Virus record (IMG/VR): IMGVR_UViG_3300035698_024424
Span: 1 to 32,454 of that record
Direction: 5' to 3' (one strand)
DNA length: 32,454 bases
From: a virus
Below the pieces are notes generated by a model. It saw nothing but the letters and a program-made list of their open reading frames with translations, did not search any database and was not told where the DNA came from. The position numbers and the translations under genes were made by a program. Below, in pieces: positions 3,075-15,979 of the stretch (positions within the stretch are counted from its first letter, which is position 1; each line of letters starts with the position of its first letter).

Positions 3075-5176
3075 TATAGCTCCTCTTTTAAAATAGTATC
3101 TGATAGTCCTAAATCACCTTGGTTCATTCCTGCAAGTCCTTCAATAGTTGGTTCTTGAGGGGAAGAACCAACTATCGTCGGAGTCTCTATCTCAGTTTCT
3201 TCCTGTTTTAGTAACTGTGATAATAACATTAACTTCTCTATCTGATTTATATCAATTTCATCAATTTCTTTCAATGCCCTTACCTTATTCAGCAAGCCTA
3301 CGTCTCTATCACGCTGGGCTTGCGCTATTCTTTCAACGGCCAACGCCTTGTTCTCATTTACTCGAGACGCTCGCTCTATGCCAAGGCCAGTATCTGCCAC
3401 TGCTTTGGCTTCATCACGTTTAGCTTTAGCTTGGAGTGCTTGTATCTCTGCCTGCATCTGCATGTTCTGTAGTTGTTGCTGCATTTCTGTACGCTGTTTA
3501 ACCGACTCCATAATTTTTGACTTGTTCTGTACCGTGACAGTATCCCAGATAGCGTCCTCTGGTATGTTCATCCCTGCCTCTTTCATAAACATGAGCTGGC
3601 CAAACTGCAATTGTCTTTGTGTAGTAGTATTAAGTCCATCTTCTACTGCAGCGTCATATTTACCGAACGCTTTATGATAAAACTGAGGAGAGGGCTCAGC
3701 CTCTATAATTCTTTTTACTTTACCAGGAGTGAAATTTGCCTGTATTACATCAATCATAAGCTTGCCTAATAACTTTTGAGACTGGTCAAGGTTGTCAAAA
3801 AGGATTTGAAGACTTGTCGTACCAGCTGACATCTTGAGCATCGAATGATAACCGCTTAGGGTATCCTTATTATCAAAGCCAAGCATCTCTTCTGATACTC
3901 CTGATATCTCTTGTATCTCTCTGCCTAATGAGTTAGAGAGTTCCATAGTGCTTGGCGCAATAGAGGGAGGTATAATCTGTTGCACATCTTCCATTGACGC
4001 AGAATCCTTTAAAGCAAGACCTCTGCCCTGTCCTGACATGAAGATATCTTTAGGGTTAACAAGCGCATTTTCCTTGTATTTCCAGCCAGAATTGATTTGT
4101 GACTCCATCATATCAAGCTCAATGATCTTGCGCCTATTGTACAGATACTGTGCATCTCTCAAACCTCTGGTCACTCCCTGAATACGCCAGGAGAAGTAAG
4201 GCATTTGAGGTTCATAGTAAGCAAAAACAGGAACAAAGGGATACTTATCTATATTATAAGGATGAGGACCATCATACATGACGCGTCCCTCAACAACTAT
4301 ACCAAGCTTAACGGTAGGAATCTCTTGATTAATAAGCGTTACTTGCGGATATAAAGAGAGGTAGCGCTTTAATTTTTCTTCATCAGGATGGCTCCACTCC
4401 ATAACCTCACCAGTCTGTGTGTCTACAAGCATTTTTTGGTTGCGATAGGCACGGTACCAGTACTCATCATAGGTAAGTAATGATTTGGGGCCATAGGAAT
4501 AGGCCTCGGGCATAAGTGGGAACTTGCCGTCCCTGTTAGAACCAGAACCGGTTAATGAAGCTATCTCTTGCGCATGGGCAGGAAGATAGGATATTACTGA
4601 ATCTTTAGTTAAGTAGGAACGTTTCCATATAAAGTTACAATCTGAAAGGTCCATCTTCCTAAAATAGGGATCTATCATAAAGCTATTATAGGAACAATTG
4701 TCTACCTTTATATCACCAGAAACTGGGTCTGATCTAAAGTCTAGCCATACCTGAAGCAGGTTAAGGCCTGTTACGAGTGCTCCATCAAAGGCATCAGATA
4801 CGGTCTCTAAAATCCCTTCTCGCTGACTATTCCACATAAGTATTTTAGTGAATTGGTCAGCAGTATCAGAGTCACCGTTCTCTACAGGAACCGCTATAAT
4901 TGATTTACGGTTACGCCGCTGATGGCCACCTATCATGTTCTTTATACGACGGCATCTATTGAAACAAAAGTTATTGTTTTGGTTGGCAGGAACATTACCT
5001 CCAATATAGGTCGACATATCCTGATACCCAGCATTAACGCGAGTGTCAATATCAGCCTCTGCCCAGAATTGTTGGTTTATATTGATCGATTCAGCATAGT
5101 CATTCTCCATCTTCTGCAAGAGAGGACGATGGCGTTCATCATAATAGGTAGTCCCTAGACTAGTAAATATAGACAC
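3074..5176 (-). CDS. Portal protein
   Basis: This 700-residue protein has the size of P22/N4-type portals, the dodecameric ring at the packaging vertex. Recognisable stretches include the N-terminal NNNFCFNRCRRIKNMIGGHQ region (about 67-86), the helix-rich wing DQFTKILMWNSQREG (107-121) leading to GALVTGLNLLQVWLDF, and a region near 330-365 with GVTRGLRDAQYLYNRRKI. A Gln/Ala-rich coiled coil (about 560-640) may form the barrel. It lies between terminase and scaffold, as in other phages. The frame starts with GTG at 5176 behind AAAAAGGAG with only four bases of spacing; an ATG four bases upstream is in another frame and opens only six codons, so initiation may be deliberately weak. Codons 121-131 (GILETVSDAFD) are the 33-bp sequence repeated elsewhere in the genome. 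Confidence 0.85.
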   Translation of the reverse strand: MSIFTSLGTTYYDERHRPLLQKMENDYAESININQQFWAEADIDTRVNAGYQDMSTYIGGNVPANQNNNFCFNRCRRIKNMIGGHQRRNRKSIIAVPVENGDSDTADQFTKILMWNSQREGILETVSDAFDGALVTGLNLLQVWLDFRSDPVSGDIKVDNCSYNSFMIDPYFRKMDLSDCNFIWKRSYLTKDSVISYLPAHAQEIASLTGSGSNRDGKFPLMPEAYSYGPKSLLTYDEYWYRAYRNQKMLVDTQTGEVMEWSHPDEEKLKRYLSLYPQVTLINQEIPTVKLGIVVEGRVMYDGPHPYNIDKYPFVPVFAYYEPQMPYFSWRIQGVTRGLRDAQYLYNRRKIIELDMMESQINSGWKYKENALVNPKDIFMSGQGRGLALKDSASMEDVQQIIPPSIAPSTMELSNSLGREIQEISGVSEEMLGFDNKDTLSGYHSMLKMSAGTTSLQILFDNLDQSQKLLGKLMIDVIQANFTPGKVKRIIEAEPSPQFYHKAFGKYDAAVEDGLNTTTQRQLQFGQLMFMKEAGMNIPEDAIWDTVTVQNKSKIMESVKQRTEMQQQLQNMQMQAEIQALQAKAKRDEAKAVADTGLGIERASRVNENKALAVERIAQAQRDRDVGLLNKVRALKEIDEIDINQIEKLMLLSQLLKQEETEIETPTIVGSSPQEPTIEGLAGMNQGDLGLSDTILKEEL
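4784..4816 (-). repeat. Portal-gene copy of the dispersed 33-bp sequence (probable source)
   Basis: Read in the portal sense, this begins GGGATTTTAGAGACCG and ends TATCTGATGCCTTTGAT, exactly eleven codons in phase (residues 121-131). Seven further copies lie at 8739, 8772, 10159, 12012, 12263, 13558 and 15930. The copy here fits naturally into the portal reading frame and helix pattern, which suggests it is the origin of the others. Confidence 0.9.
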
Positions 5177-5227
5177 TCATCTCCTTTTTATTTTTGAATG
5201 AATGTATGCTTCATATCTATTCTAAAA

Positions 5228-5247
5228 TTGCTATACTGCAATAGCAA
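5228..5247 (+). promoter_or_regulatory. Extended -10 promoter with overlapping palindromic operator
   Basis: TTGCTAT-ACTGCA-ATAGCAA is a perfect 7-bp inverted repeat. It contains TATACT (5232-5237) preceded by TGC, an extended -10 element. No good -35 is present. It lies 33 bp upstream of the secreted C1q-like gene at 5281. A repressor binding the palindrome would block this promoter, fitting expression that is independent of the virion operon, perhaps also outside the lytic phase. Confidence 0.5.
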
Positions 5248-5280
5248 GTAACAAATATATTAAAAAAAGAAAGGGATTTA

Positions 5281-5781
5281 ATGAATAGCAAAAAATCGCT
5301 CATCGCTTTATCGTTACTTTTGTCCTGCACTAACACATTTTCTTATCTTGGCTCTTATGTATCTGCTTATGCGAGCATAGGAGGCCTACAAGTAGTAACA
5401 GAGAGATGGACACCGGTAGCAGTTGATCTAAATGCGCAAGAACATCGCTGGGAGACACAGGATGATTGTCAATTTACGTGTCTAAAAAGTGGTGTCTACT
5501 TTGTACTAGTAACAGCAACTTATAATGCACTTGAATGCGATTCTGATGATGAAGTTCGGATGCGTGGCCTGGTTAATAATAAGTGGATCTGGAGTTCTAG
5601 TGCGGTAGATAAAGTAGGAAATAAAACAAGACTGTTTTTGTCATTTCATGATATTCAAGATCTGAAAAAGGGTGATGTAATTCACTTTGAGCATATGCGG
5701 ACCGGTGAATCTGGCCTTATTTCAAACACTGTTGACATGATAGCTCCTTCAGTAGTAATTACTATAATAAGGGTGAACTAA
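5281..5781 (+). CDS. Secreted C1q/TNF-like jelly-roll protein (moron)
   Basis: This 166-residue protein has a clear signal peptide (MNSKKSLIALSLLLSC, then TNTFS; a Cys at 16 makes lipoprotein processing possible). The mature part has beta-sandwich character: hydrophobic/polar alternation with the GVYFVLVTATYNALEC block (107 downward in C1q-like folds corresponds to the 'G-x-Y-x-F/V' strand) and a final SVVITIIRV strand. It has its own promoter and operator upstream, ribosome site AAAGGG, and an intrinsic terminator downstream, so it forms a self-contained rightward cassette between leftward portal and packaging genes. This is the standard layout of a moron. Export suggests action at the host surface, for example superinfection exclusion or adhesion, but that role is inference. 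Confidence 0.65.
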   Translation: MNSKKSLIALSLLLSCTNTFSYLGSYVSAYASIGGLQVVTERWTPVAVDLNAQEHRWETQDDCQFTCLKSGVYFVLVTATYNALECDSDDEVRMRGLVNNKWIWSSSAVDKVGNKTRLFLSFHDIQDLKKGDVIHFEHMRTGESGLISNTVDMIAPSVVITIIRVN

Positions 5782-5805
5782 CACACTCTTAACTCTCATT
5801 CTTAC

Positions 5806-6333
5806 TTAACGGGACCCTGGTTTCTCTCCATTTCCAGGGTCTTTTTTATTGGACATTTCTAATTTTTGTATTGATTCAACAATAAAAGAATAGGACTCTA
5901 AGAGCTTATCCCTGTCCCAAAAAAGATAATGTAATTTATATATCTTTCCCTCAAATTCAAATCGATCCAACGAAAAGAACATCTTTTTAAATGCATCATG
6001 ATCAGAATTATAAAAATCCTTTACTAAAAAGGTATTATCAGAGGGGATAATCTTCCACTTCTGGAGAAGCCCTATCCTGTTTTTATGAAGCGTAGTATCG
6101 GTCGACATATAGTAAGATACATATGATGATAATGGAATATCAAACAATTCTTTATTTGTTTTTGTGTGTCGCGGAACCTCACGGGTATACAGAGAAGGAT
6201 CAGGTTCAGCCGGGAAGCTTTTAAATAAAGCCCTCTCTTTTGGAGGATATTTCTCCTGATTATCATTATAAAATCTAATAAACAAGCTACAAAAATGGCG
6301 TGTCTTTTCTTTTATCCATAATAATAATTTCAT
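5806..6333 (-). CDS. Unknown protein between terminase and portal
   Basis: This 175-residue protein has a hydrophobic/basic N-terminal helix (MKLLLWIKEKTRHFCSLFIR), possibly amphipathic and membrane-associated. A body rich in aromatic and charged residues follows, with KIYKLHYLFWDRDKLLESY near 132-150, and a polar tail (KKDPGNGEKPGSR). It begins four bases after the terminase stop and so belongs to the packaging operon. Its last codons are embedded in the terminator of the opposing C1q gene, so the C-terminus may have been reshaped by insertion of that cassette. No family is recognised. Confidence 0.6.
   Translation of the reverse strand: MKLLLWIKEKTRHFCSLFIRFYNDNQEKYPPKERALFKSFPAEPDPSLYTREVPRHTKTNKELFDIPLSSYVSYYMSTDTTLHKNRIGLLQKWKIIPSDNTFLVKDFYNSDHDAFKKMFFSLDRFEFEGKIYKLHYLFWDRDKLLESYSFIVESIQKLEMSNKKDPGNGEKPGSR
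5813..5847 (+). terminator. Rho-independent terminator of the C1q-like gene
   Basis: GACCCTGG (5813-5820) pairs perfectly with CCAGGGTC (5834-5841) across a 13-base loop, followed by TTTTTT. It lies 32 bases after the stop codon of the secreted gene and inside the 3' end of the opposing 175-residue gene. Confidence 0.85.
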
Positions 6334-6336
6334 ATA

Positions 6337-8706
6337 TTACCTAAAGAAACGGGGAAGGTTACCTTGATCGCCATAGCGTGATTCTCTATAGTTTCTATCT
6401 ATATCTTCTGGGGTCAAGCCTTTTCGTTCTATCTTAGGGATTGCGATACACAGATAGCGCATCGCATCAGCAGCGTCTGAGTTATGGTCATGTAACGGAT
6501 TACGATGATACGTTTTTAAACGATGATCATATTGCTGTCTATAATTCTCTAATGCCTTTATAAGAACGCGACACTTATTCTGATCTATCTTCATACGAGG
6601 AAGTGTTAATCTGACACGCTCTATACCATCATTTATTGGTATATTATAAGGATCAGAAAAGTGAATGCCTAGGTTTCCATACATCTCACGATAGGTAAGG
6701 CCTGTTCCCTGCTCATGTTTCATTATGTCATGTGGCGGAAAATGTTGGCCATAGGTATACGGTTTAGACTTAATAACCTGAGCAAAATGGTCTATCTTCT
6801 CAAATGATTTCTGATAATAATCTATTACATGAATCGCTGTCCCTATAACTTGGAAGAATATGATACATGTTGGATCATTATAACCTATGTCCCAAGCAGT
6901 ATGCACTTTATGCTGCGGGTCCCAGGGTATTTCTGTTATACCATTTGATAGCCTGAGATCGTTAATATATTTAGCATAGTAGGCACCGTCTGATCCTACA
7001 TCAAAAGAACAATAGAACTCCTGTTGTATCATGTCCTCTGACATCTCTTTCCTAATCTGATCCATCTCAATGTCATCGATATGTTTTGTATCATCAAGAG
7101 TAAGCCTATAAGAGAACCAGTATGGTGATTCTAATGATGTTTTATAGAGATCATAGAAATGATTCCTTCCTTTCGGCGTTCCCAAAAATACTGCCCAGCC
7201 CTTGTTAGCGGCAAGGATAGGCCTAATAACCTCATTCCATGCCTGCGGGTACTGTTCAGCATATTCAGAGAATATTACACCTCTTGGATTAGTACCACGA
7301 AGTGAGTTCCCGGACCAACATTCTTTTCCGTTTCGACGAACTTTTATAACTCCTGAATCAGTAGAAACACAATATACCTTTCCGTCATAATCATGCGTAG
7401 TAATGTACTTCTTTATAGAAGAACAAAGTCGTTTAAATTTAGATTTTCTTACAAAAACGGCAAAATGAGGACGGAGTGACTTTATTCTTCTTCCTTTTAT
7501 GAATCCTATGGATTGCTTCCTTTGATACACATTTCCACTCTGGCCAAGTTTAATTATAATCTCTTGAACATCATCAACAAGTCTTTTAGAACTTGAATAA
7601 AACGCTGTATAAGTGGAACATGAATGACCATCTCCATCAATGAGCCATTCAAATAATACTTTGAGATATTCTCTGGAAAGATTTTTTATTTCTTGAGGTA
7701 TAAACCGTTCATGTTGCAAACCAAATTGAGAGAAATACAAATACATCTGTTGATCGGTAAAAGTAAATCTATCTTTATCTTCATAAAAATTAATATTGGC
7801 TCGCGTTAAAAGATCTCGGATCTTATCCCTTATAGCAATCTTTACTTGAGAAATAGTAATTCTATATGTTTTACTACTTTTATAAACACTACCTTCAGAT
7901 AAATAAATACCTAAAAGAGATACAAAATCTTTCATATCTAAAGAACGATTATATTCCTTTACTACTCGTCGACCTTTTCCACATACCCATTCTTTCTTGA
8001 GATGAGGGAATGTAAAGACGCTTTTATTAGCTCCATTCCAATCACATTGTGAGGGTATTGCGTCATGTATTATTGTTGGATCATCTATTCGCTTAAACTT
8101 ATAAACTCCCTTAGTGGATTTAACGAAGAATCTATGATTAGGTGTTACGACACAATCCAATGAATTATTTTTTATATGGTACATAGTTCCGCTATAGTCA
8201 TATTCCATCTTTTTATTAGGCTTCTTATACTCTAAGAATCCATCCTTTAATGTTGCTACCTTTTGGTCGCCCACATCTTTAAATAATTTCCATCCGTACT
8301 CAGTAAGTATTTCTGTCTTATCATCAAAACAAGCATAATTATCAGAGCCTACAAACTGTAAAAAAGAGCCATTTATAAGTTTTATTTTTAACTCTTGTGA
8401 ATTTTTTGAGAATATGGTCTCTGATGGTATAAAATCAAGCATCTGATTGCCTTGAATAGTAATGGCATCCCAAATAGCTTTCTTAGCCTGAGAATAGGTG
8501 GGAAATATATAGTAGTATGTTCCCACATGTGCAAACATCTCTGGTATCATGATGAGGTTGAATGCGCTTATATCTTTACCTGAACGACGAGGTTTTAAGA
8601 TTAATAAGCGTCTGAATCCGTCTATATGAAACGCTTTCCATATAGGTAATTGATAGGGCCTTGGTATAAACTTATCAAGTACTATATTTTTTACTGTTTC
8701 TGTCAT
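6337..8706 (-). CDS. Large terminase subunit interrupted by an intein
   Basis: The 789-residue precursor is the ATPase-nuclease motor that packages phage DNA through the portal. The N-extein carries a Walker A-type motif LKPRRSGKD (37-45). The C-extein carries Walker B GVIFSEYAE (476-484, catalytic Glu481), the coupling motif LGTPKGRNHF (509-518), and a nuclease domain with Asp606 (TAWDIGYNDP) and DHNSDAADAMRYL (Asp744, Asp747). Residues 126-467 are an intein, so the spliced protein would be 447 residues, normal for TerL. Splicing joins VGSDNYA to SLRGTNPRG, next to the ATPase active site. The start at 8706 has an in-frame stop just upstream and no good ribosome site; two tandem 33-bp repeats lie where leader signals would be expected. 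It follows the small-terminase candidate. Confidence 0.93.
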   Translation of the reverse strand: MTETVKNIVLDKFIPRPYQLPIWKAFHIDGFRRLLILKPRRSGKDISAFNLIMIPEMFAHVGTYYYIFPTYSQAKKAIWDAITIQGNQMLDFIPSETIFSKNSQELKIKLINGSFLQFVGSDNYACFDDKTEILTEYGWKLFKDVGDQKVATLKDGFLEYKKPNKKMEYDYSGTMYHIKNNSLDCVVTPNHRFFVKSTKGVYKFKRIDDPTIIHDAIPSQCDWNGANKSVFTFPHLKKEWVCGKGRRVVKEYNRSLDMKDFVSLLGIYLSEGSVYKSSKTYRITISQVKIAIRDKIRDLLTRANINFYEDKDRFTFTDQQMYLYFSQFGLQHERFIPQEIKNLSREYLKVLFEWLIDGDGHSCSTYTAFYSSSKRLVDDVQEIIIKLGQSGNVYQRKQSIGFIKGRRIKSLRPHFAVFVRKSKFKRLCSSIKKYITTHDYDGKVYCVSTDSGVIKVRRNGKECWSGNSLRGTNPRGVIFSEYAEQYPQAWNEVIRPILAANKGWAVFLGTPKGRNHFYDLYKTSLESPYWFSYRLTLDDTKHIDDIEMDQIRKEMSEDMIQQEFYCSFDVGSDGAYYAKYINDLRLSNGITEIPWDPQHKVHTAWDIGYNDPTCIIFFQVIGTAIHVIDYYQKSFEKIDHFAQVIKSKPYTYGQHFPPHDIMKHEQGTGLTYREMYGNLGIHFSDPYNIPINDGIERVRLTLPRMKIDQNKCRVLIKALENYRQQYDHRLKTYHRNPLHDHNSDAADAMRYLCIAIPKIERKGLTPEDIDRNYRESRYGDQGNLPRFFR
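7306..8331 (-). mobile_element. LAGLIDADG-type intein within the large terminase
   Basis: This 342-residue insertion spans residues 126-467 of the precursor. It starts with Cys (CFDDKTEILTEYGWK, block A), has block B with TPNHRFF (188-194), and has two LAGLIDADG-like helices, LLGIYLSEG (264-272) and LFEWLIDGDG (351-360). It ends VYCVSTDSG, then VRRNGKECWSGN, followed by Ser+1. Splicing chemistry is therefore Cys1/Asn-end/Ser+1. The usual penultimate His is Gly (GN), a tolerated variant in some inteins. Both homing-enzyme motifs retain acidic residues (E271, D359/D357), so the endonuclease may be active. The 5' and 3' exteins are in frame and complete. Confidence 0.92.
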
Positions 8707-8738
8707 TTTTTTTCATCTTCATTCAATCTTTTCAGTCC

Positions 8739-8804
8739 GGGGTTTTTCAGACCGTATCTGATGCCTTTGATGGGGTTTTAGAGACCGTATCTGATGCCTT
8801 TGAT
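8739..8804 (-). repeat. Tandem pair of the 33-bp portal-derived sequence
   Basis: Two units abut exactly, 8739-8771 and 8772-8804. Both start GGGGTTTT and end CTGATGCCTTTGAT on the plus strand. The first reads TTTTTCAGACC and the second TTTTAGAGACC; the second differs from the portal sequence at one position and the first at three. They occupy the leader between small- and large-terminase genes. The minus-strand transcript would carry the complement of portal mRNA twice. Confidence 0.9.
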
Positions 8805-8821
8805 ATGGCAGTGTACAGTTT

Positions 8822-8843
8822 ATAAAAGCTAAAAAGCTTTTAT
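8822..8843. other. AT-rich hairpin between terminase genes
   Basis: ATAAAAGCT (8822-8830) pairs with AGCTTTTAT (8835-8843) with a 4-base loop. A T-rich run (CTTTTTCTTC) follows on the plus strand, opposite to local transcription, so it could stop rightward antisense transcripts. On the minus strand it is only a leader hairpin. Confidence 0.35.
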
Positions 8844-8879
8844 CTTTTTCTTCTGAAAGAGTAAAAGGATATATATAAA

Positions 8880-9401
8880 TCATGAATCTTTTTCATCTTT
8901 TTTATCCTTTCTAAAGTCTGGTATAATTACATTAATAGTTTGTTCATTGTCACTGTTCTTGGAATCACGCTTGATCCGTATGAACTCTTTTAACATCTCC
9001 ATATAATCATTATCATATTTTGGTAAAAGCCTTGTTACAAAGGAAGAATACGAAGGGTCATTATAGGCAAGCGCATACAGACGAGAAGCAATATTAGCCT
9101 TAACTATTTCTCGTGCTGCTCCAAGGTATGGATGTTCTACACATTTTGTTTTGAAGAGCCGTTCAGTTACTCGTTGCTCTGCACAAAACTGGATCAAAGA
9201 ATAGCCATCTGCTCTTTCAGAAAATAGAAGTAGTTCATAAGCAAGCGCCCATATATTATCTTCATTTCCTGGACTATCACTTTTAGTAGGATCAAATAAT
9301 GAGAAGTAGTTCTTTACCGCTCCTTCACAATTAGATTCTCTCTTCCATGCATCTCTTTCAAGGGGAACTTTCTGTAGAAAGCCATTCTTCTTTTTTGCCA
9401 T
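8880..9401 (-). CDS. Small terminase subunit (candidate)
   Basis: This 173-residue protein is mostly helical. A central segment resembles small-terminase or DNA-binding helices: VTERLFKTKCVEHPYLGAA, then VKANIASRLYALAYNDPSY and FVTRLLPKYDNDYMEML. A highly charged C-terminal tail (FRKDKKDEKDS) follows. Size, helix content, 'ARLYALA' type helix and position directly upstream of the large terminase support TerS, the subunit that recognises packaging sites and regulates TerL. No canonical HTH is obvious, and the alternative is an unrelated DNA-binding protein. The ATG follows a weak AAGAG site. Confidence 0.6.
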   Translation of the reverse strand: MAKKKNGFLQKVPLERDAWKRESNCEGAVKNYFSLFDPTKSDSPGNEDNIWALAYELLLFSERADGYSLIQFCAEQRVTERLFKTKCVEHPYLGAAREIVKANIASRLYALAYNDPSYSSFVTRLLPKYDNDYMEMLKEFIRIKRDSKNSDNEQTINVIIPDFRKDKKDEKDS

Positions 9402-9420
9402 TAACTACTCTTTTAATGAC

Positions 9421-9783
9421 TTATAATTCTTTTATCACTATATGAGTTCTTTCTGTATCACTATACCTTTTCATACTTTTAACCCAGCATACCTGGCAAT
9501 CATCCTTAAATACAATATTAGTAAAGCAGTCCTCTATAAACTTTTGACAGTTTGTAGTATCTGGTCGTGATATATACCAATCATTCTCTTTAACCCCACG
9601 CTTTGCAGCTGCTTTAGATATCTTAAAATAGAACTCTATAGATACATAAACAGGCCCAAGAAGAAGAGGTTTTCTAATATACTGAATGGCTATAAGGCTC
9701 TTTAAAACACACATCTGTTTATAATGGGTATTAACAAAACGGCCCCGGTACTCTCTATAATTGAAAGGGAGAGGGCGGCCCAA
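9421..9783 (-). CDS. rusA: RusA-family Holliday-junction resolvase
   Basis: The 120-residue frame shows the RusA signature: RPDTTNCQKFIEDCFTNIVF followed by KDDCQV (about 74-98), with the acidic residues Asp75, Asp92/Asp93-type positions and a Lys used in junction cleavage. RusA enzymes resolve four-way junctions, in phages clearing branches before packaging; the gene lies directly upstream of terminase. The annotated start is TTG at 9783. However, codons upstream continue KFTLL before GRPLPFNYR, which matches the usual RusA N-terminus. The true start may therefore be an ATA at 9798-9796, overlapping the previous gene's stop (ATAA) behind AAAAGGAAAAGAA. This would be a non-canonical initiation codon. 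Confidence 0.85.
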   Translation of the reverse strand: MGRPLPFNYREYRGRFVNTHYKQMCVLKSLIAIQYIRKPLLLGPVYVSIEFYFKISKAAAKRGVKENDWYISRPDTTNCQKFIEDCFTNIVFKDDCQVCWVKSMKRYSDTERTHIVIKEL

Positions 9784-9794
9784 TAACGTAAACT

Positions 9795-10115
9795 TTATTT
9801 TCTTTTCCTTTTACAGCAACAATACAGGATACAGGCAACGACAGGTACAGATAAGGGAATCAGTGACATCTCTGCTGATGGTTTATTGTCTATTAAAGGA
9901 CAGGTGTCAGTAGGGGTATATACCGGATTAAATGGGTTATGATCAATATAGGTTGGAGTAACCTGCTTCTGCTTAACCTTTCTCTTATGGGCCGGGCATG
10001 GATTCCAGTCCTGGTCTCTTGGATCATAGCCATGATAGTAGCCCTGATTATTAATAATAGGAGGTTTCTCTGCACTAAAAAGGGGAAGTGATACAAATAG
10101 TAGTAAGTATCTCAA
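9795..10115 (-). CDS. Single-pass membrane protein with signal peptide
   Basis: This 106-residue protein has a cleavable signal (MRYLLLFVSLPLFSAEKPPI). A Tyr/Pro/Asn-rich exported segment with CPAHKRKVKQKQ follows, then a C-terminal membrane helix (SLIPLSVPVVACILYCCC) and a basic stop-transfer tail KRKRK. It would be a type I membrane protein with an outside domain of about 60 residues. The start is TTG at 10115 behind AAAGGAATTAATT, and the gene lies between the tRNA and rusA. Its topology could serve a lysis role (spanin-like) or receptor masking, but no family is recognised. Confidence 0.55.
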   Translation of the reverse strand: MRYLLLFVSLPLFSAEKPPIINNQGYYHGYDPRDQDWNPCPAHKRKVKQKQVTPTYIDHNPFNPVYTPTDTCPLIDNKPSAEMSLIPLSVPVVACILYCCCKRKRK

Positions 10116-10136
10116 ATTAATTCCTTTACGTTTTGA

Positions 10137-10241
10137 GGCCCTGCCGGGAATTGAACCCGGGGTTTTAGAGACCGTATCTGATGCCTTTGATTGGGTTTTT
10201 GGAATGAAACTCCAACGTCCTAACCACTATACTACAGGGCC
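10137..10241 (-). tRNA. tRNA-Glu(TTC) interrupted by a 33-bp insertion
   Basis: On the minus strand the acceptor arms GGCCCTG / CAGGGCC, D-arm GTATAGTGGTTAGGAC, anticodon arm TTGGA-GTTTCAT-TCCAA (anticodon TTC) and T-arm CCGGG-TTCAATT-CCCGG are all present. The span is 105 bases; removing a 33-bp insert leaves 72, normal for tRNA-Glu. The insert sits between the anticodon stem and T-stem, in the variable region. It is the portal-derived repeat (10159-10191), flanked by AAAACC-like duplicated bases. CCA is not encoded. The gene may be dead, may yield a tRNA with a very long variable arm, or may be an assembly error. Confidence 0.85.
10159..10191 (-). repeat. 33-bp portal-derived sequence inside tRNA-Glu
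   Basis: On the plus strand it starts GGGGTTTTAGAGACCG and ends ATCTGATGCCTTTGAT, one base different from the portal copy. GGGTTTT occurs again immediately after it (10193-10199), so the insertion could have created a short target duplication. The tRNA transcript strand would be complementary to portal mRNA. Confidence 0.9.
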
Positions 10242-10245
10242 ATTT

Positions 10246-10626
10246 TTATTCCCTATCTTTCTTTATCCATTTATCTCTATTTACCTCTGCTTCTAGCCAT
10301 ATCACTATCTCTTGTATCTGTCTTTTATGGATCTCATAGTTTCCTATACAGTTACTTACATTGTGAAGCGCAATAGAAAGGTGAGAGTACAACTGTCGTT
10401 GTACCTCCGTGTCAGATAAGCTCGAAGCATGTTTGTCAGTATATGAATAATAATATTCTTTTCTACAAAGAGAACATTTCCACAGATAAGTCTTGTTTAC
10501 GTTAATGTAGCGCCACCTATTAAAAGAAGAGTCGTTTATTGTAATGGTTGCGGGCGGCAACAGGGTAGGATGGTCGTGGCATCTTAAACTAAAAGAGTAT
10601 ATGGTAGGCTTCTTTCTCATTATCAC
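10246..10626 (-). CDS. Small protein with a possible zinc-binding site
   Basis: This 126-residue protein has an N-terminal CHDH near 15 and WKCSLCRKEYYYSY around 49-62, giving one clear CxxC pair. It continues with His-rich segments (HLSIALHNVSNC) and a C-terminal amphipathic helix (QIQEIVIWLEAEVNRDKW). The CHxH plus CxxC arrangement resembles a small zinc ribbon or finger, but the second ligand pair is only a guess. It sits five bases from the tRNA in the early region. Start may be GTG 10626 or the ATG two codons later. Function unknown. Confidence 0.6.
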   Translation of the reverse strand: MIMRKKPTIYSFSLRCHDHPTLLPPATITINDSSFNRWRYINVNKTYLWKCSLCRKEYYYSYTDKHASSLSDTEVQRQLYSHLSIALHNVSNCIGNYEIHKRQIQEIVIWLEAEVNRDKWIKKDRE

Positions 10627-10679
10627 TCTCTCTTTTTATAGTACTAGCTCTCCCCTTTTAACTCTATGTCCATTATCCC

Positions 10680-11117
10680 TCATATGGTAAACCTTATTCT
10701 CAACAGATTGTAATCTTTATCAGACAATAAAATTGAATAAACCTTATCGCCGTTCATTGATTTAGTATTCTCATGATTTTCATAAGAAGTGAACCATATA
10801 TTGACACAGATGTCATCTTTAGAGCCCAGATTAATTACTGAGCCATCATCTCCTTTTATAACAGATGGCATAAGCCTTTCTTTGGAGATATGAGGCGCAA
10901 TAATAGAGACAGGCTTTGACTTATGGACCAACGAAAATGATTCATAGGCCTCTAAGATATCCAGCACTGTTATAGAGCATGGCATATCAGTTGATTCTTT
11001 GTCATAGAAAGCATTAAAAAAATCAAGACTGTCTAATAAGTGCATAGAGTTAGAGAATGTATCTTTATCTTTGGATAATAAAGTAGCAACGATATCTTTT
11101 CTTTCAGACTTTTTCAC
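10680..11117 (-). CDS. Unknown early-region protein
   Basis: This 145-residue protein has a charged N-terminus (MKKSERKDIVATLLSKDKD) and an alternating strand-rich C-terminal half ending YSILLSDKDYNLLRIRFTI. No signal peptide, membrane helix or known motif is visible. Its ATG overlaps the stop of the preceding gene by four bases (ATGA), so the two are translationally coupled and belong to the leftward early operon. No function is proposed. Confidence 0.6.
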   Translation of the reverse strand: MKKSERKDIVATLLSKDKDTFSNSMHLLDSLDFFNAFYDKESTDMPCSITVLDILEAYESFSLVHKSKPVSIIAPHISKERLMPSVIKGDDGSVINLGSKDDICVNIWFTSYENHENTKSMNGDKVYSILLSDKDYNLLRIRFTI

Positions 11118-11329
11118 TCTTCATTCCAAAAAGCATAATTCTCTTCTTTTAGTTCCTTATAGTCAGATTCCATCTTTTCTTCGTCCATATAAGATTTAGG
11201 GAACGTTTTGTTAACCCATTCATCAACAGAACACTTGCAACCACCACGTGAAACGGCAAAACACTCTCTTAATGAACCATTACACTTAGAACAAAGTCCA
11301 GATAGATTAGAGTTTGTTGTTTTAGTCAT
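11114..11329 (-). CDS. Cys-rich putative zinc-binding small protein
   Basis: This 71-residue protein has an N-terminal Cys cluster: CSKC (13-16), a single Cys near 23, and CKC (31-33). This is enough ligands for one structural zinc. An acidic C-terminal tail follows (EEKMESDYKELKEENYAFWNEE). The ribosome site AGGAAG precedes ATG at a good distance. It overlaps the next gene by four bases. Small zinc proteins of this type are common in phage early regions, sometimes binding host polymerase, but nothing here proves a target. Confidence 0.65.
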   Translation of the reverse strand: MTKTTNSNLSGLCSKCNGSLRECFAVSRGGCKCSVDEWVNKTFPKSYMDEEKMESDYKELKEENYAFWNEE

Positions 11330-11336
11330 TTACTTC

Positions 11337-11765
11337 CTAAAAAGGTAAGTTGCTTTGCCAGTCAGAAGGAGGCCTAAGGGGAGCAGCGGGTCTAGCCAGA
11401 GATTCCCTGTCATATACGCCTGACGATGAAGGTATTAACTCTAATACTTCTGATACATTTTTCTTTACTTCATTCTGTGTCCTCGGATCTTTCTCATTTA
11501 TTCCGAGCTCTATGGTCTTATCTCTTCTAAGGCTCCACTCTGGTTGTAGATCATGTTCCTTGCAGTAGCTATAGGCAACCTTAGCAAAGTATTTAAACGG
11601 GACTGAGAGCGGCCCACGGTTCTTCTCTGTCGCTCTTCTAAGGGCCATATTAGCCTGTTTTATAGCTTCCTTAGGATAAGCCATAAGGTCTACCATGCCT
11701 GCAACGGTAAGGTCCAAGGATGATATGTTCTTAATATAGTCTGGTATAAAATCTGGTATGTTCAT
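11337..11765 (-). CDS. Unknown early-region protein with conserved-looking C-terminal tip
   Basis: This 142-residue protein has a helical N-terminal body (SLDLTVAGMVDLMAYPKEAI, then ALRRATEKNRG and FAKVAYSYCKEHDLQPEW). A disordered Pro/Ser region leads to the tip DWQSNLPF. The aromatic/proline tip vaguely recalls protein-docking tails such as those of SSB proteins, but it lacks their acidic run, so no replication role is claimed. AGGAT lies at the expected distance from the ATG. It sits between the zinc-binding gene and an 84-codon frame, downstream of the replication initiator. Confidence 0.55.
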   Translation of the reverse strand: MNIPDFIPDYIKNISSLDLTVAGMVDLMAYPKEAIKQANMALRRATEKNRGPLSVPFKYFAKVAYSYCKEHDLQPEWSLRRDKTIELGINEKDPRTQNEVKKNVSEVLELIPSSSGVYDRESLARPAAPLRPPSDWQSNLPF

Positions 11766-11813
11766 TTATTATCCTAAATACACTTTTTCTTTTTCTCTTC
11801 CATCAGTCTTCCT

Positions 11814-12068
11814 TCAACTCTTCTTCCGTAAGCGTAGGAATAACAGAATCTTTAACAAATTACGAGGATCGTCTAGTACTTCAGGGTGAAGGTTTAACTT
11901 ATCGAAGCCCTGTAACGACAGCTTACCCGTGGGATATCCTGATCGTCGCATCAGAAATCTATATCTATTCTTTTTCACATTTATTCTCCCTATCCTAAAC
12001 TCATTCATTCCGGGGTTTTTCAGACCGTATCTGATGCCTTTGATTTCGTCTAGTATACCAAAAATCAT
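11814..12068 (-). CDS. Small basic protein whose N-terminus contains the 33-bp repeat
   Basis: This is an 84-residue frame. Residues 9-19 (IKGIRYGLKNP) are encoded entirely by the repeat at 12012-12044. The remainder, from MNEFRIGRINVKKNRYRF onward, is basic and ends LKILLFLRLRKKS. No good ribosome site precedes the ATG at 12068 or the internal ATG at 12008. The original gene may have started at 12008 (64 residues) and acquired an N-terminal extension or lost its leader by the insertion. No family is recognised, and expression is uncertain. Confidence 0.45.
   Translation of the reverse strand: MIFGILDEIKGIRYGLKNPGMNEFRIGRINVKKNRYRFLMRRSGYPTGKLSLQGFDKLNLHPEVLDDPRNLLKILLFLRLRKKS
12012..12044 (-). 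repeat. 33-bp portal-derived sequence in the 84-codon frame
   Basis: It is identical to the first unit of the tandem pair (8739-8771), including the GGGGTTTTTCAGACC variant. The shared three-base deviation from the portal copy shows that these two copies are related to each other. It is open in the local reading frame. Confidence 0.9.
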
Positions 12069-12102
12069 GTTTATGTTAAGGAATAGCCCCTATGAGGGGT
12101 CG

Positions 12103-13248
12103 CTATCGATTAATAAAAAGAGATTTTAATAAATTGCCTATAGATTTGGGCGCCCGGCCCATTCCAGTCTTAGCAGGAATCGCTAAACCTCTGGTTGCAA
12201 CAGCCAGTTTAATAGCTTCTTTTCTACAAAGGGATACAGGGGGCTTCTCAGGCTCAACAGTCGGGGTTTTAGAGACCATCTGATGCCTTTGATAGCGCTC
12301 GTTACACTCCTGCTCATACTCCAACAAGAGACTAAAATCAGTCTCATCCTCAGGTCCAACGGCATTCGGGCGCTCTTGCGGATTTTGCCCCTTAAGACTT
12401 TCTAACTCAAAGCATCGACAGTTAAAAATAAGTTCATGATCACAGGAAATGCCCTCTGCAGCCCATTGTTCCTTCACATGCTTTGTTAAAGATTCTGTTC
12501 TTCTCTTTGCAGAAAACTCTCTATCTTCTTGCATATACAACTCACTTGACCAAGGTCCTCGCGGCTGCGGGGCCGAAGGTGCAAAAGCGGCAACATTTTC
12601 TTCCTGGCAATCTATTTCTTTAAATAAACGACCTCTTATAATCTTATCTAGGGTGGTCAATTTCAGATGGCCATATTTTTCTGTGCTACCTGGGTAGCTT
12701 TTGTAGGTCAGGTAAGGCCTAATAGTTTCTATTTGTGTATAGTTACTGTTTGAATTAAATAGTACTTGTTTTACTGTCTTTTTGTTTAGAGCTGTTGGTA
12801 ATAGAAGTACTCGTCTTCCTGCATACTGCAGAGGTGACCCCGGAGAGTTTGGGGTCCAGCAGTGATCTGTTGAGAACAGGAAGACGAGCGGATAGAAAGC
12901 CCAAGAGCGTATGAGCTTTCTAAGTTTATATCTAAATGATTGTTCTCTTAATATTGGATTTAATAGGTAGACGCGAGATCTAATGTCTGGATGTAGATTT
13001 TGTAGCAGTATACCTCTTTCATTGAGCTCTTTTATTACTTTCTTTACGGTCCTTATATGAACGCCTGCTAGTCGAGCTATGGTCTTTATGGCAGGGAAAC
13101 TAATTTGATAATTATCGTCAAACCAGCCGAATTTCTCTAAAACATTGAGGTATGCAGGTGTTTGAGTGTTTAGCCATTCTAATAGTTTTTTTCCATCTTT
13201 TTCAAAACCAGCTTGACTAGTCGGGTTTTCTATGCTACTTTTATTCAT
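12103..13248 (-). CDS. Winged-helix replication-initiator-like DNA-binding protein
   Basis: This 381-residue protein has an HTH of the winged-helix, initiator type at about 51-82 (FPAIKTIARLAGVHIRTVKK, then VIKELNERGIL). A hydrophobic/basic region (100-125) and a long, variable and partly disordered C-terminal half follow. The AAAGGAAA ribosome site is next to the ATG. Directly upstream lies a non-coding, AT-rich block with tandem 26-bp repeats and palindromes, so a role in binding the origin and starting replication with host enzymes is plausible. The alternative is a transcription regulator. Residues about 319-328 are encoded by a 31-bp variant of the dispersed repeat, which keeps the frame open. 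Confidence 0.65.
   Translation of the reverse strand: MNKSSIENPTSQAGFEKDGKKLLEWLNTQTPAYLNVLEKFGWFDDNYQISFPAIKTIARLAGVHIRTVKKVIKELNERGILLQNLHPDIRSRVYLLNPILREQSFRYKLRKLIRSWAFYPLVFLFSTDHCWTPNSPGSPLQYAGRRVLLLPTALNKKTVKQVLFNSNSNYTQIETIRPYLTYKSYPGSTEKYGHLKLTTLDKIIRGRLFKEIDCQEENVAAFAPSAPQPRGPWSSELYMQEDREFSAKRRTESLTKHVKEQWAAEGISCDHELIFNCRCFELESLKGQNPQERPNAVGPEDETDFSLLLEYEQECNERYQRHQMVSKTPTVEPEKPPVSLCRKEAIKLAVATRGLAIPAKTGMGRAPKSIGNLLKSLFINR
12263..12293 (-). repeat. 31-bp variant of the portal-derived sequence inside the initiator-like gene
   Basis: It starts GGGGTTTTAGAGACC and continues ATCTGATGCCTTTGAT, lacking two bases (GT) relative to the 33-bp form. The reading frame of the host gene is retained through it (local peptide RYQRHQMVSKTP). 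Confidence 0.88.
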
Positions 13249-13271
13249 GAAATTTCCTTTATATTGGTCAT

Positions 13272-13329
13272 TTCCATAAAAAGAGATTTTATGGAATTTC
13301 CTTAAAAAGAGATTTTATGTAATTACCTT
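13272..13329. repeat. Two tandem 26-bp iteron-like repeats with palindrome
   Basis: Units at 13278-13303 and 13304-13329 share AAAAAGAGATTTTATG followed by K-AATT-W-CCTT, differing at two positions. The first unit lies within a perfect inverted repeat, TTCCATAAAA-AGAGA-TTTTATGGAA (13272-13296). It lies 24 bp upstream of the initiator-like ATG, suitable for both origin binding and autoregulation. Confidence 0.75.
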
Positions 13330-13443
13330 GTGCTTCAGGGTATTTTACTTTCTTCCTAAAGGATTGAGCGTGTTCCTTCATTGAGAACCTCTCTTTCTTT
13401 TTTCCTCTTTCATGGAGGAATAGTTAATTCTTTTCTTTTTTTT

Positions 13444-13535
13444 AAAAAGTAGTCAATTGTTTGTCAATTGTAAAGAGAAGTTTATACCATACTCTTTCAT
13501 TTTACTACTGATTCTCGGACAATTGGCTACTTTTT
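13444..13535. repeat. 17-bp imperfect inverted repeat with internal direct repeats
   Basis: AAAAAGTAGTCAATTGT (13444-13460) and its complement ACAATTGGCTACTTTTT (13519-13535) match at 16 of 17 positions (the exception would be a G-U pair in RNA), separated by 58 bp. TCAATTGT is repeated with 11-bp period at 13453 and 13464, i.e. on the same helix face. Confidence 0.7.
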
Positions 13536-13557
13536 TTTGTATATTTTTCTTATCCAT

Positions 13558-13591
13558 GGGGATTTTAGAGACCGTATCTGATGCCTTTGAT
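13558..13591 (-). repeat. Intergenic copy of the portal-derived sequence (exact match)
   Basis: Bases 13559-13591 are identical to the 33 bases of the portal gene, including GGGATTTTAGAG. This is the only dispersed copy without a substitution. It lies in the 3' flank of the HTH regulator gene. Confidence 0.9.
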
Positions 13592-13642
13592 TTGGTACTA
13601 CCCCAATAAATGCAGCGGCCTCTTTTGTCTTCATGAAATCAG

Positions 13643-13882
13643 TTAGTTTTTTAATAAAGTATCCTGTCCTGCCTGTTCTGCCTCTGCCTGATCTAGAAAT
13701 CTCTCTACCTTAATAAGTGTCTTTCTTTTGACGTCCAGTCCATCCAGTAGCCTAGTTATCGTAGCAGAAGTCAGGCCTGTCTTTTTACCTATCATACGGT
13801 CAGCTAGAGGTTCCTTTAGATCTTTTAGATACTTCCATAACCGTTCATGAACACTATTGAACATATCTTTCTTTGTAGTCAT
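13643..13882 (-). CDS. Small HTH regulator (XRE-like)
   Basis: This is a 79-residue protein if started at ATG 13882 (MTTKKDMFNSVHERLWKYL). That start follows AAAGGAT at good spacing; the longer frame to 13975 would be translated through a terminator and is rejected. The HTH is around 35-62: MIGKKTGLTSATITRLLDG with DVKRKTLIKVERFL behind it, typical of Cro/CI-type DNA-binding domains. It faces the strong rightward promoter at 13902-13929 that drives the SPFH-ERF operon, so it is a candidate repressor of that divergent promoter. Confidence 0.7.
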   Translation of the reverse strand: MTTKKDMFNSVHERLWKYLKDLKEPLADRMIGKKTGLTSATITRLLDGLDVKRKTLIKVERFLDQAEAEQAGQDTLLKN

Positions 13883-13901
13883 ATTTATATCCTTTATTTT
13901 G

Positions 13902-13929
13902 TTGACATATCTAATCATATATATATAAT
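13902..13929 (+). promoter_or_regulatory. Consensus sigma70-type rightward promoter
   Basis: TTGACA (13902-13907) and TATAAT (13924-13929) are perfect hexamers with a 16-bp spacer, ahead of the operon starting at 14020. It lies between the HTH regulator and that operon, so probably an early promoter under control of the regulator. The AT repeats in the spacer (CATATATA) could be part of an operator. Confidence 0.8.
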
Positions 13930-13941
13930 TGATTAAGTAAA

Positions 13942-13982
13942 GAAAATAAAACCCCCGCCCGTAGGGAGACCACAAGCGAGGG
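13942..13982 (-). terminator. Leftward rho-independent terminator
   Basis: On the minus strand CCCTCGC (13976-13982) pairs with GCGGGGG (13952-13958, one G-U) and is followed by TTTTATTTTC. It would stop leftward transcripts arriving antisense through the SPFH-ERF operon before they reach the regulator. In rightward transcripts the same stem forms a hairpin in the operon's leader. Confidence 0.65.
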
Positions 13983-14019
13983 ATGAAAACATACAGCTTA
14001 TCACACTAAAGGACAAGCT

Positions 14020-14439
14020 ATGAACAATACTACCAGAACTCACACTATATACAAAGACCAAGAATGGGACCTCGAGTCAGTCGTTGATGAAATCACAGAC
14101 CAAGAGATCCAAGAACACCAAGAAAAACTTGACGCAGAAAGAGAACGACTAGACAATCTCGATAAACTAAAAACAACACAGTGGAAACGAGAAGCAGAAA
14201 AGGCGTACAAACTTCAATCATTAGCAAAGCAATATAAAGAAGGGTACATCAGACAAATAAACATACTAAAGACTCTCTCAGGGGGACGGTCATTCTCTTG
14301 TGGAGACTATTGGCTAGAGAAGAGCTATAGAAAAGGATCTATAGATTATGGAGTCATACCAGTGCTTAAAACAATAAATCTTGACCTATACCGTAAGGAT
14401 AATGTTGAGGCATGGAAGCTTAATAAGATAAATGATTAG
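14020..14439 (+). CDS. First gene of the early operon, coiled-coil protein of unknown function
   Basis: This 139-residue protein has an acidic, strongly helical first half (DEITDQEIQEHQEKLDAERE) continuing to about residue 80. A compact second half follows, containing SGGRSFSCGDYWLEKSYRKG and DYGVIPVLKTINLDLY. No membrane segment is seen. It is the first gene after the consensus promoter and a hairpin leader. Leading early genes are often host-takeover or nuclease-inhibitor proteins, but no family is recognised. It partly resembles helical recombination-associated phage proteins only in composition. Confidence 0.65.
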   Translation: MNNTTRTHTIYKDQEWDLESVVDEITDQEIQEHQEKLDAERERLDNLDKLKTTQWKREAEKAYKLQSLAKQYKEGYIRQINILKTLSGGRSFSCGDYWLEKSYRKGSIDYGVIPVLKTINLDLYRKDNVEAWKLNKIND

Positions 14440-14476
14440 AAGTGAAAAACAAGTGATCAATTATAGAGTATAAAAT

Positions 14477-15322
14477 ATGAGCTGGGATAATAATTACAAT
14501 TCACCAAATAAAGAATCAATAAAAGAAACACTCCTAATTATATGGAATTCAAAGATTGTAAAGATACTTTTTAGAAGCATCACGTTTCTTTCAGTAATGG
14601 TAGCTCTGTACATTGCTGGGCCATGGTACATCATTATGCCAGGATTCTCAGCTATTCATTTGAGGCTAGGAAGCGTAAAGAAAGTTCACTGTATACCAGG
14701 GTTTCACTTAAAGGCACCACTTATAGACAGTATTGTTCCTATGGACATGCGTATCAAGAAATCAGTCATAAAAACTGAAGCATTCTCCCATGATCTACAA
14801 ATAATAGATGTTGAAGTAGCTATAAACTATAGAATCGATAACCCTCTGAGCGTATACCAAAATATTGGCTCTTATTACGAAGAGACCGTTATTGATCCTT
14901 TTACTCAAGAATCACTCAAAGCAGTCATTGCTATGTTTACTGCGGAAGAATTGACCCAACAGCGAGAAAAGGCTAAAGGGATAGTAAAGAAGGATCTTGC
15001 TAACGCTTTAAAAAACGTAAACATAATCCTTGTTGACTTTAACTTTATCCATGTTGATTTCCATGCTGAGTTCATAAAATCAGTAGAGCGAAAACAGATA
15101 GCACAACAACGGGCCAAAGAATCAAAGTTTGATACTATGAGAATAAAAGAAATAGCAGCACAGACAAAAGAACAAGCCGATGCTAACGCATATGCTCTTA
15201 AGGTGCAAAAAGATATGGCTACGCCTCAATTAGCATTGCTAAAAGCCATAGAGAAATGGAATGGAAAGCTGCCACGCATAATGACATCTAATCTTGCTAA
15301 CTTTATAGAAGGAATCCAATGA
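14477..15322 (+). CDS. SPFH/prohibitin-like (band 7) membrane protein
   Basis: This 281-residue protein has a single N-terminal membrane helix (about 31-53: ILFRSITFLSVMVALYIAG), then an SPFH domain. The domain shows GFSAIHLRLGSVKKVHCIPG, FHLKAPLIDSIVPMDMRIKK, and a typical strand VEVAINYRIDNPLSVYQNI. A coiled coil follows at about 190-250 (ERKQIAQQRAKESKF onward, AKEQADANAYALKV-type). Cellular family members form ring scaffolds in membranes and regulate FtsH-type proteases. In T4, an unrelated-looking early region also carries membrane modulators. A phage copy might protect early proteins or modulate lysis timing. Its ATGA end overlaps the next gene by four bases. Confidence 0.82.
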   Translation: MSWDNNYNSPNKESIKETLLIIWNSKIVKILFRSITFLSVMVALYIAGPWYIIMPGFSAIHLRLGSVKKVHCIPGFHLKAPLIDSIVPMDMRIKKSVIKTEAFSHDLQIIDVEVAINYRIDNPLSVYQNIGSYYEETVIDPFTQESLKAVIAMFTAEELTQQREKAKGIVKKDLANALKNVNIILVDFNFIHVDFHAEFIKSVERKQIAQQRAKESKFDTMRIKEIAAQTKEQADANAYALKVQKDMATPQLALLKAIEKWNGKLPRIMTSNLANFIEGIQ

Positions 15323-15645
15323 GCATATTAAGTGAACTGTTCGGAAAAGATAATCCGAACGAAGCAAACGAACCATACGAAACATTAAAAAAAATAGGGG
15401 GGCTTCCTTTATTAGTTTATGGGTTAGCAGATAGAACTAAAAACACTCCATTCGAACAAGAAGCAGTATCTATCTATGAAAAATCAAAAGAATTAGCAGA
15501 GAAGTCTTACAATATGATAAAAGATCCACTGAAATTTAATAATTGGAAACAACTTACAGAAGAAACTAGAGAGATGGTGGAGAAATATTTTAACATAGAA
15601 GAAAGGGCTGGAGAATATATAAAGAACAACAAGGACTTATTATAA
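15319..15645 (+). CDS. Small helical protein coupled to the SPFH gene
   Basis: This 108-residue protein starts within the last codon of the SPFH gene (ATGA overlap). It is amphipathic and helical (KKIGGLPLLVYGLADRTKN, then ELAEKSYNMIKDPLKF) with no membrane helix, and ends EYIKNNKDLL. Tight coupling suggests a partner of the SPFH protein. No family is recognised. Confidence 0.65.
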   Translation: MSILSELFGKDNPNEANEPYETLKKIGGLPLLVYGLADRTKNTPFEQEAVSIYEKSKELAEKSYNMIKDPLKFNNWKQLTEETREMVEKYFNIEERAGEYIKNNKDLL

Positions 15646-15679
15646 AACATTCAAAAACAAACTAGAGGCAGAACTAACA

Positions 15680-15979
15680 ATGCCAGTAGAAATGCCCTAT
15701 ATAGGGCCTAATGCTATCTACTATATAATTATAGAACTGTTCTGCTTAGCAGGTATATGGTTTATCTTAGAAGGATTAAGTAAACAAACCCCAAAACTCA
15801 AAGGACTCACTATGACTCTTTTAGGAATAGTACTTATTGTAGGACCTCTTTCTTATCTACCCCTTATAGGATCAGAGGAAAAGCCTCGTCTTGATAGGGG
15901 CAATGAATTCAGAAACGAAAAACAACAGAATCAAAGGCATCAGATACGGTTCCGGTTGCCACTACATACAATAGAATAA
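15680..15979 (+). CDS. Two-helix membrane protein with repeat-derived C-terminus
   Basis: This 99-residue protein has two predicted membrane helices, about 14-30 (YIIIELFCLAGIWFILE) and 42-62 (LTMTLLGIVLIVGPLSYLPL), joined by a short basic loop (KQTPKLKG). A charged C-terminal tail follows. The tail segment QRHQIR near residues 85-90 comes from a 21-bp core of the portal-derived repeat. Small size and two helices would suit a holin, but no endolysin is linked to it, so this is only a possibility. It lies in the SPFH-ERF operon. Confidence 0.55.
   Translation: MPVEMPYIGPNAIYYIIIELFCLAGIWFILEGLSKQTPKLKGLTMTLLGIVLIVGPLSYLPLIGSEEKPRLDRGNEFRNEKQQNQRHQIRFRLPLHTIE
15930..15950 (+). repeat. 21-bp core of the portal-derived sequence, inverted relative to other copies
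   Basis: ATCAAAGGCATCAGATACGG plus one T on the plus strand is the complement of the portal coding sequence. The neighbouring GGGGTTTTAGAG part is absent. This copy is flipped relative to the others, matching the reversed transcription of this operon. Confidence 0.85.

Follow-up and report, generated by a model that had tools for sequence, protein, structure and literature searches.

A 33-bp fragment of a portal gene recurs in early genes and a tRNA gene of one tailed phage

How did a short piece of a portal gene come to recur in the early half of the same phage genome, and does its dispersal serve a function? The question is raised by a single metagenomic record, IMG/VR IMGVR_UViG_3300035698_024424, whose 32,454 bp (38.7% G+C) form the whole stretch of DNA analyzed here, called the window below. 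It carries a tailed phage gene set, comprising a portal gene (phrog_156, E 4.5e-70), a large terminase gene with an intein, and genes for a major head protein, an Erf-like annealing protein and RusA. A replication-initiator-like gene (12103-13248, with matches to initiator PHROG profiles) and a gene for an SPFH/Band-7 protein are also present. A sequence-only reading of this DNA had noticed the repetition, and offered an antisense system, a 33-bp mobile or gene-conversion unit, or an artefact as its possible meaning.

The large terminase gene (6337-8706) contains an in-frame intein with LAGLIDADG motifs (PF14528). The SPFH/Band-7 (stomatin/prohibitin) protein is encoded in the rightward operon at 14477-15322 (PF01145), and similar genes are known in other phages.

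Copies of the portal fragment and their source

Portal codons 121-131 were found again at all the places listed by the sequence-only reading (Table 1), with coordinates that were correct except at 13558, which is one base off (13559). The seven copies fall into six loci within the 8.7-16 kb interval, since the units at 8739 and 8772, previously listed separately, are both real but form one tandem locus. The unit had been described as 33 bp long. This length holds at several loci, but the copies are not always 33 bp or exact (31 bp at 12263, 21 bp at 15930). A 14-mer core has eight exact occurrences, and one 16-mer is common to all eight places; apart from the listed copies, nothing in the window comes closer than 13 mismatches. 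Among 100 Markov-simulated genomes, none contained a k-mer longer than 14 in three copies, and the longest k-mers present in duplicate measured 14-19. The dispersed repetition of this portal piece is thus confirmed as real.

Table 1. Portal source, its copies in the window, and three of the genes or reading frames that contain copies.
Feature	Position	Strand	Description
Source	4784-4816	-	Portal codons 121-131, GILETVSDAFD, GGGATTTTAGAGACCGTATCTGATGCCTTTGAT
Copy 1	8739-8771	+	Variant GGGGTTTTTCAGACC...; 3 mismatches to portal; first of tandem pair
Copy 2	8772-8804	+	1 mismatch to portal; in tandem with copy 1, spacing exactly 33 bp
Copy 3	10159-10191	+	1 mismatch to portal; within variable loop of tRNA-Glu(UUC)
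Copy 4	12012-12044	+	3 mismatches to portal; TC variant as in copy 1; ORF 11814-12068
Copy 5	12263-12293	+	1 mismatch and 2-bp internal deletion (31 bp); replication-initiator-like gene 12103-13248
Copy 6	13559-13591	+	0 mismatches to portal over 33 bp; small ORF 13527-13634 (-)
Copy 7	15930-15950	-	21-bp core only; rightward ORF 15680-15979
54-aa ORF	8719-8883	-	Between putative small terminase gene and TerL; C-terminal half made of both tandem units (YQRHQIRSLKPHQRHQIRSEKP)
tRNA-Glu(UUC) gene	10136-10241	-	Rfam RF00005, 49.9 bits; all stems paired
Small ORF	13527-13634	-	MKTKEAAAFIGVVP[NQRHQIRSLKS]PWIRKIYKKK; copy 6 inside

The occurrence in portal was compared with 24 portal relatives (46-63% identity), all of which have a homologous peptide at the same place without gaps, e.g. 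GILETISESFE, NILHTISDAFE or VLETVSDAFR. Because the peptide is conserved gap-free in portals this divergent, we take the portal copy to be ordinary inherited coding sequence, from which the other copies derive.

The sequence-only reading had also suggested looking at related phages for presence or absence of each copy. No comparable dispersed family was detected in 82 other related phage loci scanned at 16-mers, nor a family dispersed like the portal unit in 25 portal relatives scanned at 14-mers. Likewise, the proposed search for the unit in phage and host genomes, performed in GTDB genome contigs, in phages and plasmids and, with exact and degenerate queries, in viral contigs, gave no relevant match at the sensitivity used in collections that may lack records very close to the window, and the 21-mer core was absent from all GTDB genome contigs searched. 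Matches in Klebsiella and Escherichia phages had E values of ~0.1-1, which fit chance, and were rejected.

Insertion into a tRNA gene and open reading frames

One point absent from the sequence-only reading is that the 10159 copy sits inside a tRNA gene, and that the other copies lie inside ORFs, not between genes. The variable region of this tRNA-Glu is 38 nt long versus a canonical 5, a net gain of exactly 33. Once 33 bp are taken out the tRNA is canonical again, which makes this copy a net 33-bp insertion. ARAGORN made no call on the gene as it stands and called tRNA-Glu once the insert was removed; the program tolerates removal of 29-36 bp, and the exact value of 33 follows from the canonical variable region together with the intact T stem. 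Read on the minus strand, AAAACCC stands on both sides of the foreign part, which constitutes microhomology with the unit end. Moreover, five copies start with GGGGTTTT, which is also what the tRNA itself has at this place; other copies may therefore have been seeded from the tRNA as an early recipient. The anticodon arm of the tRNA was searched for elsewhere and was not found.

Another unusual tRNA was predicted on a related phage contig (L091, 4998-5071): a tRNA-Phe with anticodon AAA, which is uncommon in bacteria.

ORFs read through the unit without a stop at 8772, 12012, 13559 and 15930. The 12263 copy, in the replication-initiator-like gene, reads YQRHQMVSKTP, and the frames that flank it on either side agree with codon usage. 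The 12012 copy lies near the start of its ORF, in frame as IKGIRYGLKNP, and only the TC variant is stop-free in this frame. In the rightward ORF, the 21-bp core is located near the end and encodes NQRHQIRF. The frame through 8739/8772 does not rejoin the probable old stop codon, and this insertion may break the old frame. The small ORF around 13559 is possibly an interrupted excisionase-like HTH gene, with an HTH match that is weak (E 0.22) and appears only with the insert removed and the frame changed after an A-run; the candidate gene broken by the unit would span 13457-13634, its second half being in the other frame past the A-run.

The frame giving QRHQ occurs five times against a single use of a different frame, which makes a conserved peptide function unlikely. 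A peptide tag was ruled out, as the 12012 copy departs from this frame and the 10159 copy belongs to a tRNA. Altogether, insertion is solidly supported for the tRNA copy, well supported for the 12263 copy and less so for the other loci. Insertion was deduced from the tRNA and the reading frames only, an empty-site relative having been found for no locus: viral contigs searched with the portal, terminase, replication gene, 15680 ORF and putative small terminase sequences held none close enough (the best portal identity was ~62%), with three queries giving no match at all, and genome contigs held no portal relatives.

Ends and orientation of the unit

As the sequence-only reading had claimed, the end ...CTGATGCCTTTGAT (3' on the sense strand) is fixed in all eight occurrences, and the sequences diverge immediately past it. 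The opposite end varies, from 21 bp at 15930 to 31 at 12263, 33 at 13559 and ~35-41 shared among the copies starting with GGGGTTTT. The 8739 and 12012 copies have in common a two-base TC variant (AG to TC) and 7/8 further flanking bases (P 0.0006 for a random pair). From this shared variant and flank, one of the two probably derives from the other, which suggests that copies can seed copies.

Features typical of transposition were looked for in the same sequences. The unit ends GGGGTTTT and CCTTTGAT are not complementary and form no terminal inverted repeats. No target-site duplication was seen at five loci, where the flanks differ; the 7-bp AAAACCC repeat, present only at the tRNA, is part of the unit end. 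Neither a palindrome nor a stable fold was found (antisense unit -1.2 kcal/mol, z +0.97; sense unit z -1.87), and the ORFs tested yielded no transposase, reverse transcriptase or nicking enzyme. A C at the fourth position ahead of the unit, shared by all six loci (P ~0.017 over ten columns), was not convincing as a flank motif. One fixed end, a variable opposite end, no general duplication and neither inverted ends nor a strong fold suggest that a defined end was joined on one side only, as opposed to cut-and-paste transposition.

The orientation described in the sequence-only reading was correct: five loci lie in leftward genes and one, with a flipped copy, in a rightward operon, all six being complementary to portal mRNA (6/6 in the same orientation, two-sided 0.03). 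However, two antisense frames of the unit are stop-free versus one sense frame, so survival in ORFs alone predicts an orientation bias; once stop codons are allowed for, the value becomes ~0.07 (hand arithmetic). In addition, the T-A skew turns at ~14 kb, where gene direction turns, and replication direction may therefore be co-oriented with the copies too. Single-strand annealing at forks would yield the same orientation pattern. Stop codons and replication direction may thus explain the bias.

It had been proposed that the copies form an antisense system that keeps portal synthesis low or late. In such a system, early transcripts with up to 33 nt complementary to portal mRNA would repress portal through duplex formation and cleavage. 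Such regulation is possible but unsupported, is not needed to explain the data, and seems to us quite doubtful. In its favor, all six loci are antisense relative to local transcription, and the copies lie in the early half while the target is a late gene. Against it, there are only six independent loci, with the values given above, and replication direction could be co-oriented as well. The target lies ~360 nt inside the portal coding sequence, away from the ribosome site, and one copy is buried in a tRNA. The 2-bp deletion, the AG-to-TC change and the shortening to a 21-nt core all make pairing weaker, with no sign of preserved complementarity.

Possible origins of the dispersed copies

We favor, with a probability of about 0.58, a recently dispersed micro-repeat that came from portal in one phage lineage through one-sided template switching or ssDNA capture, and that was retained where insertion was tolerated. 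During DNA synthesis or repair, a nascent strand would have joined to the same portal-derived end, copied ~33 nt and then returned to its original template. Joining might have been aided by microhomology at the tRNA (AAAACCC), and perhaps by the Erf ssDNA-annealing protein that the phage encodes along with RusA. Some copies may then have acted as source for others, as the variant and flank common to 8739 and 12012 suggest, and copies would persist only in tolerant places, namely the variable loop of a tRNA and those positions in poorly conserved early genes where no stop arises. A regulatory role would be unnecessary. The net insertion in the tRNA, the exact 33-bp tandem spacing, the stop-free passage through ORFs, the copy-of-copy variant and the presence of Erf and RusA favor this explanation. 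Against it, a fixed end at many unrelated targets is atypical of random microhomology events, microhomology is clear only at the tRNA, the unit at 12263 is 31 bp long, the 8739/8772 frame is not rejoined to the probable old stop, and neither an empty-site relative nor, among the ORFs tested, one of the enzymes listed above was found. The earlier interpretation found partial support: among the three meanings first offered, the mobile or gene-conversion unit is the one that fared best, on account of the tRNA insertion, tandem spacing, stop-free ORFs and copied copy, although it is not palindromic as the Rickettsia elements are.

A more specific version appears unlikely on present data: a phage or host enzyme would repeatedly capture a portal-derived strand with the 3' end ...CTGATGCCTTTGAT-3' and write ~33 nt into other genes, including a tRNA, with no target duplication. 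The template of such an undescribed one-ended micro-mobile unit could possibly be portal mRNA. Equally, we think it improbable that the unit is a non-autonomous mobile element (Rickettsia palindromic element (RPE), MITE, REP or one-ended IS91-type) served by an enzyme from the host or from outside the window. Such an element would account for a fixed end, for insertion that happened repeatedly and reached ORFs and a tRNA, and for copies of copies; the portal origin, a length of only 33 bp, the weak folding and the lack of terminal inverted repeats, of a general target-site duplication and of a transposase among the ORFs tested speak against it. IS91-type one-ended transposition is characterized by one fixed end, a variable other end and no target-site duplication. 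The portal unit resembles it in these three respects (no duplication being general), and differs in that no transposase, hairpin end or common target tetranucleotide was found. RPEs are palindromic, measure 100-150 bp and insert in frame into ORFs already present, which are not destroyed (PMC3767692, PMC10969869). In the phage, ORFs read through the copies, which may have entered them in a similar way, although the pair at 8739/8772 may break the old frame; the unit is 21-33 bp long (at most ~41 bp shared) and weakly structured. Moreover, RPEs form many families in bacterial chromosomes, whereas the portal unit stems from a known phage gene and is also found in a tRNA.

An assembly or library artefact, the third meaning offered, is also improbable, and rather more so. 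The sequence comes from a single metagenomic record and has no match in any other collection searched, but the seven copies have different flanks, each unique, as well as point variants, and one is surrounded by an otherwise perfect tRNA; a contig running through eight occurrences would also imply k-mers longer than the unit. Protein-binding sites like mycobacteriophage stoperators are very unlikely. Stoperators are asymmetric dispersed 13-mers in intergenic spaces and promoters, with an orientation that correlates with transcription (PMC9283540), and the portal copies are likewise dispersed, asymmetric and co-oriented with transcription (6/6 loci); in addition, 13643-13891 reads from its sequence as a repressor-like gene, with no Pfam match. 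However, the portal units are longer, lie within genes and a tRNA instead of intergenic spaces, and are accounted for by portal coding; none lies in the divergent promoter region (13.89-14.02 kb) when up to 3 mismatches are allowed. The least probable alternative, which we hardly credit, is off-target integration of a CRISPR prespacer of 33 bp preceded by AA (AAG-type PAM). Type I-E spacers are ~33 bp in size with an AAG-type PAM, and the length of 33 and the portal flank (boundary at GAGAA|GGG) would agree with this. Yet Cas1-Cas2 integration duplicates a repeat-sized target, and no such duplication was present at the compared flanks. The same piece at six places would be unexpected, the PAM match is weak given the many possible PAMs, and the 21-mer core was missing from the GTDB contigs, as noted above.

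Three further candidates were discarded. No phage RNA polymerase was found among the ORFs tested and one copy is inside a tRNA, which excluded promoters for such an enzyme; other short repeats at 13270-13321 fit replication iterons better; and the intein, as a possible cause of a homing site, is in the terminase gene and not in portal.

Template switching and microhomology-mediated replication are known to leave short copied fragments: a yeast study describes templated inverted duplications as mostly 5-34 bp (PMC11724301). The portal unit is similar in its short copied fragments, its lack of target-site duplication and its microhomology at one site. It differs in that many loci share the one fixed end and that copies apparently served as source for further copies, and the literature found concerns eukaryotes. 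Neither RPEs, stoperators nor templated inverted duplications match the unit in full.

Repeats this short usually have no traceable birth. Here the source, the products, a copy-of-copy variant and a clean tRNA insertion are found in one small genome, so this phage would allow direct study of how a dispersed repeat arises. The case further demonstrates that part of a structural gene can disperse into early genes and a tRNA. An enzymatic joining mechanism, should there be one, would amount to a new way of moving very short sequences in phages.

Other short repeats were observed around the replication-initiator-like gene. Near-identical repeats of 26-27 bp around AAAAAGAGATTTTA, at 13270-13321 and 12113-12139, lie upstream of this gene and at its 3' end, and are iteron- or operator-like. 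A second short inverted duplicate in the same region (11838-11859 and 12482-12503, 18 bp exact) is at the edge of chance.
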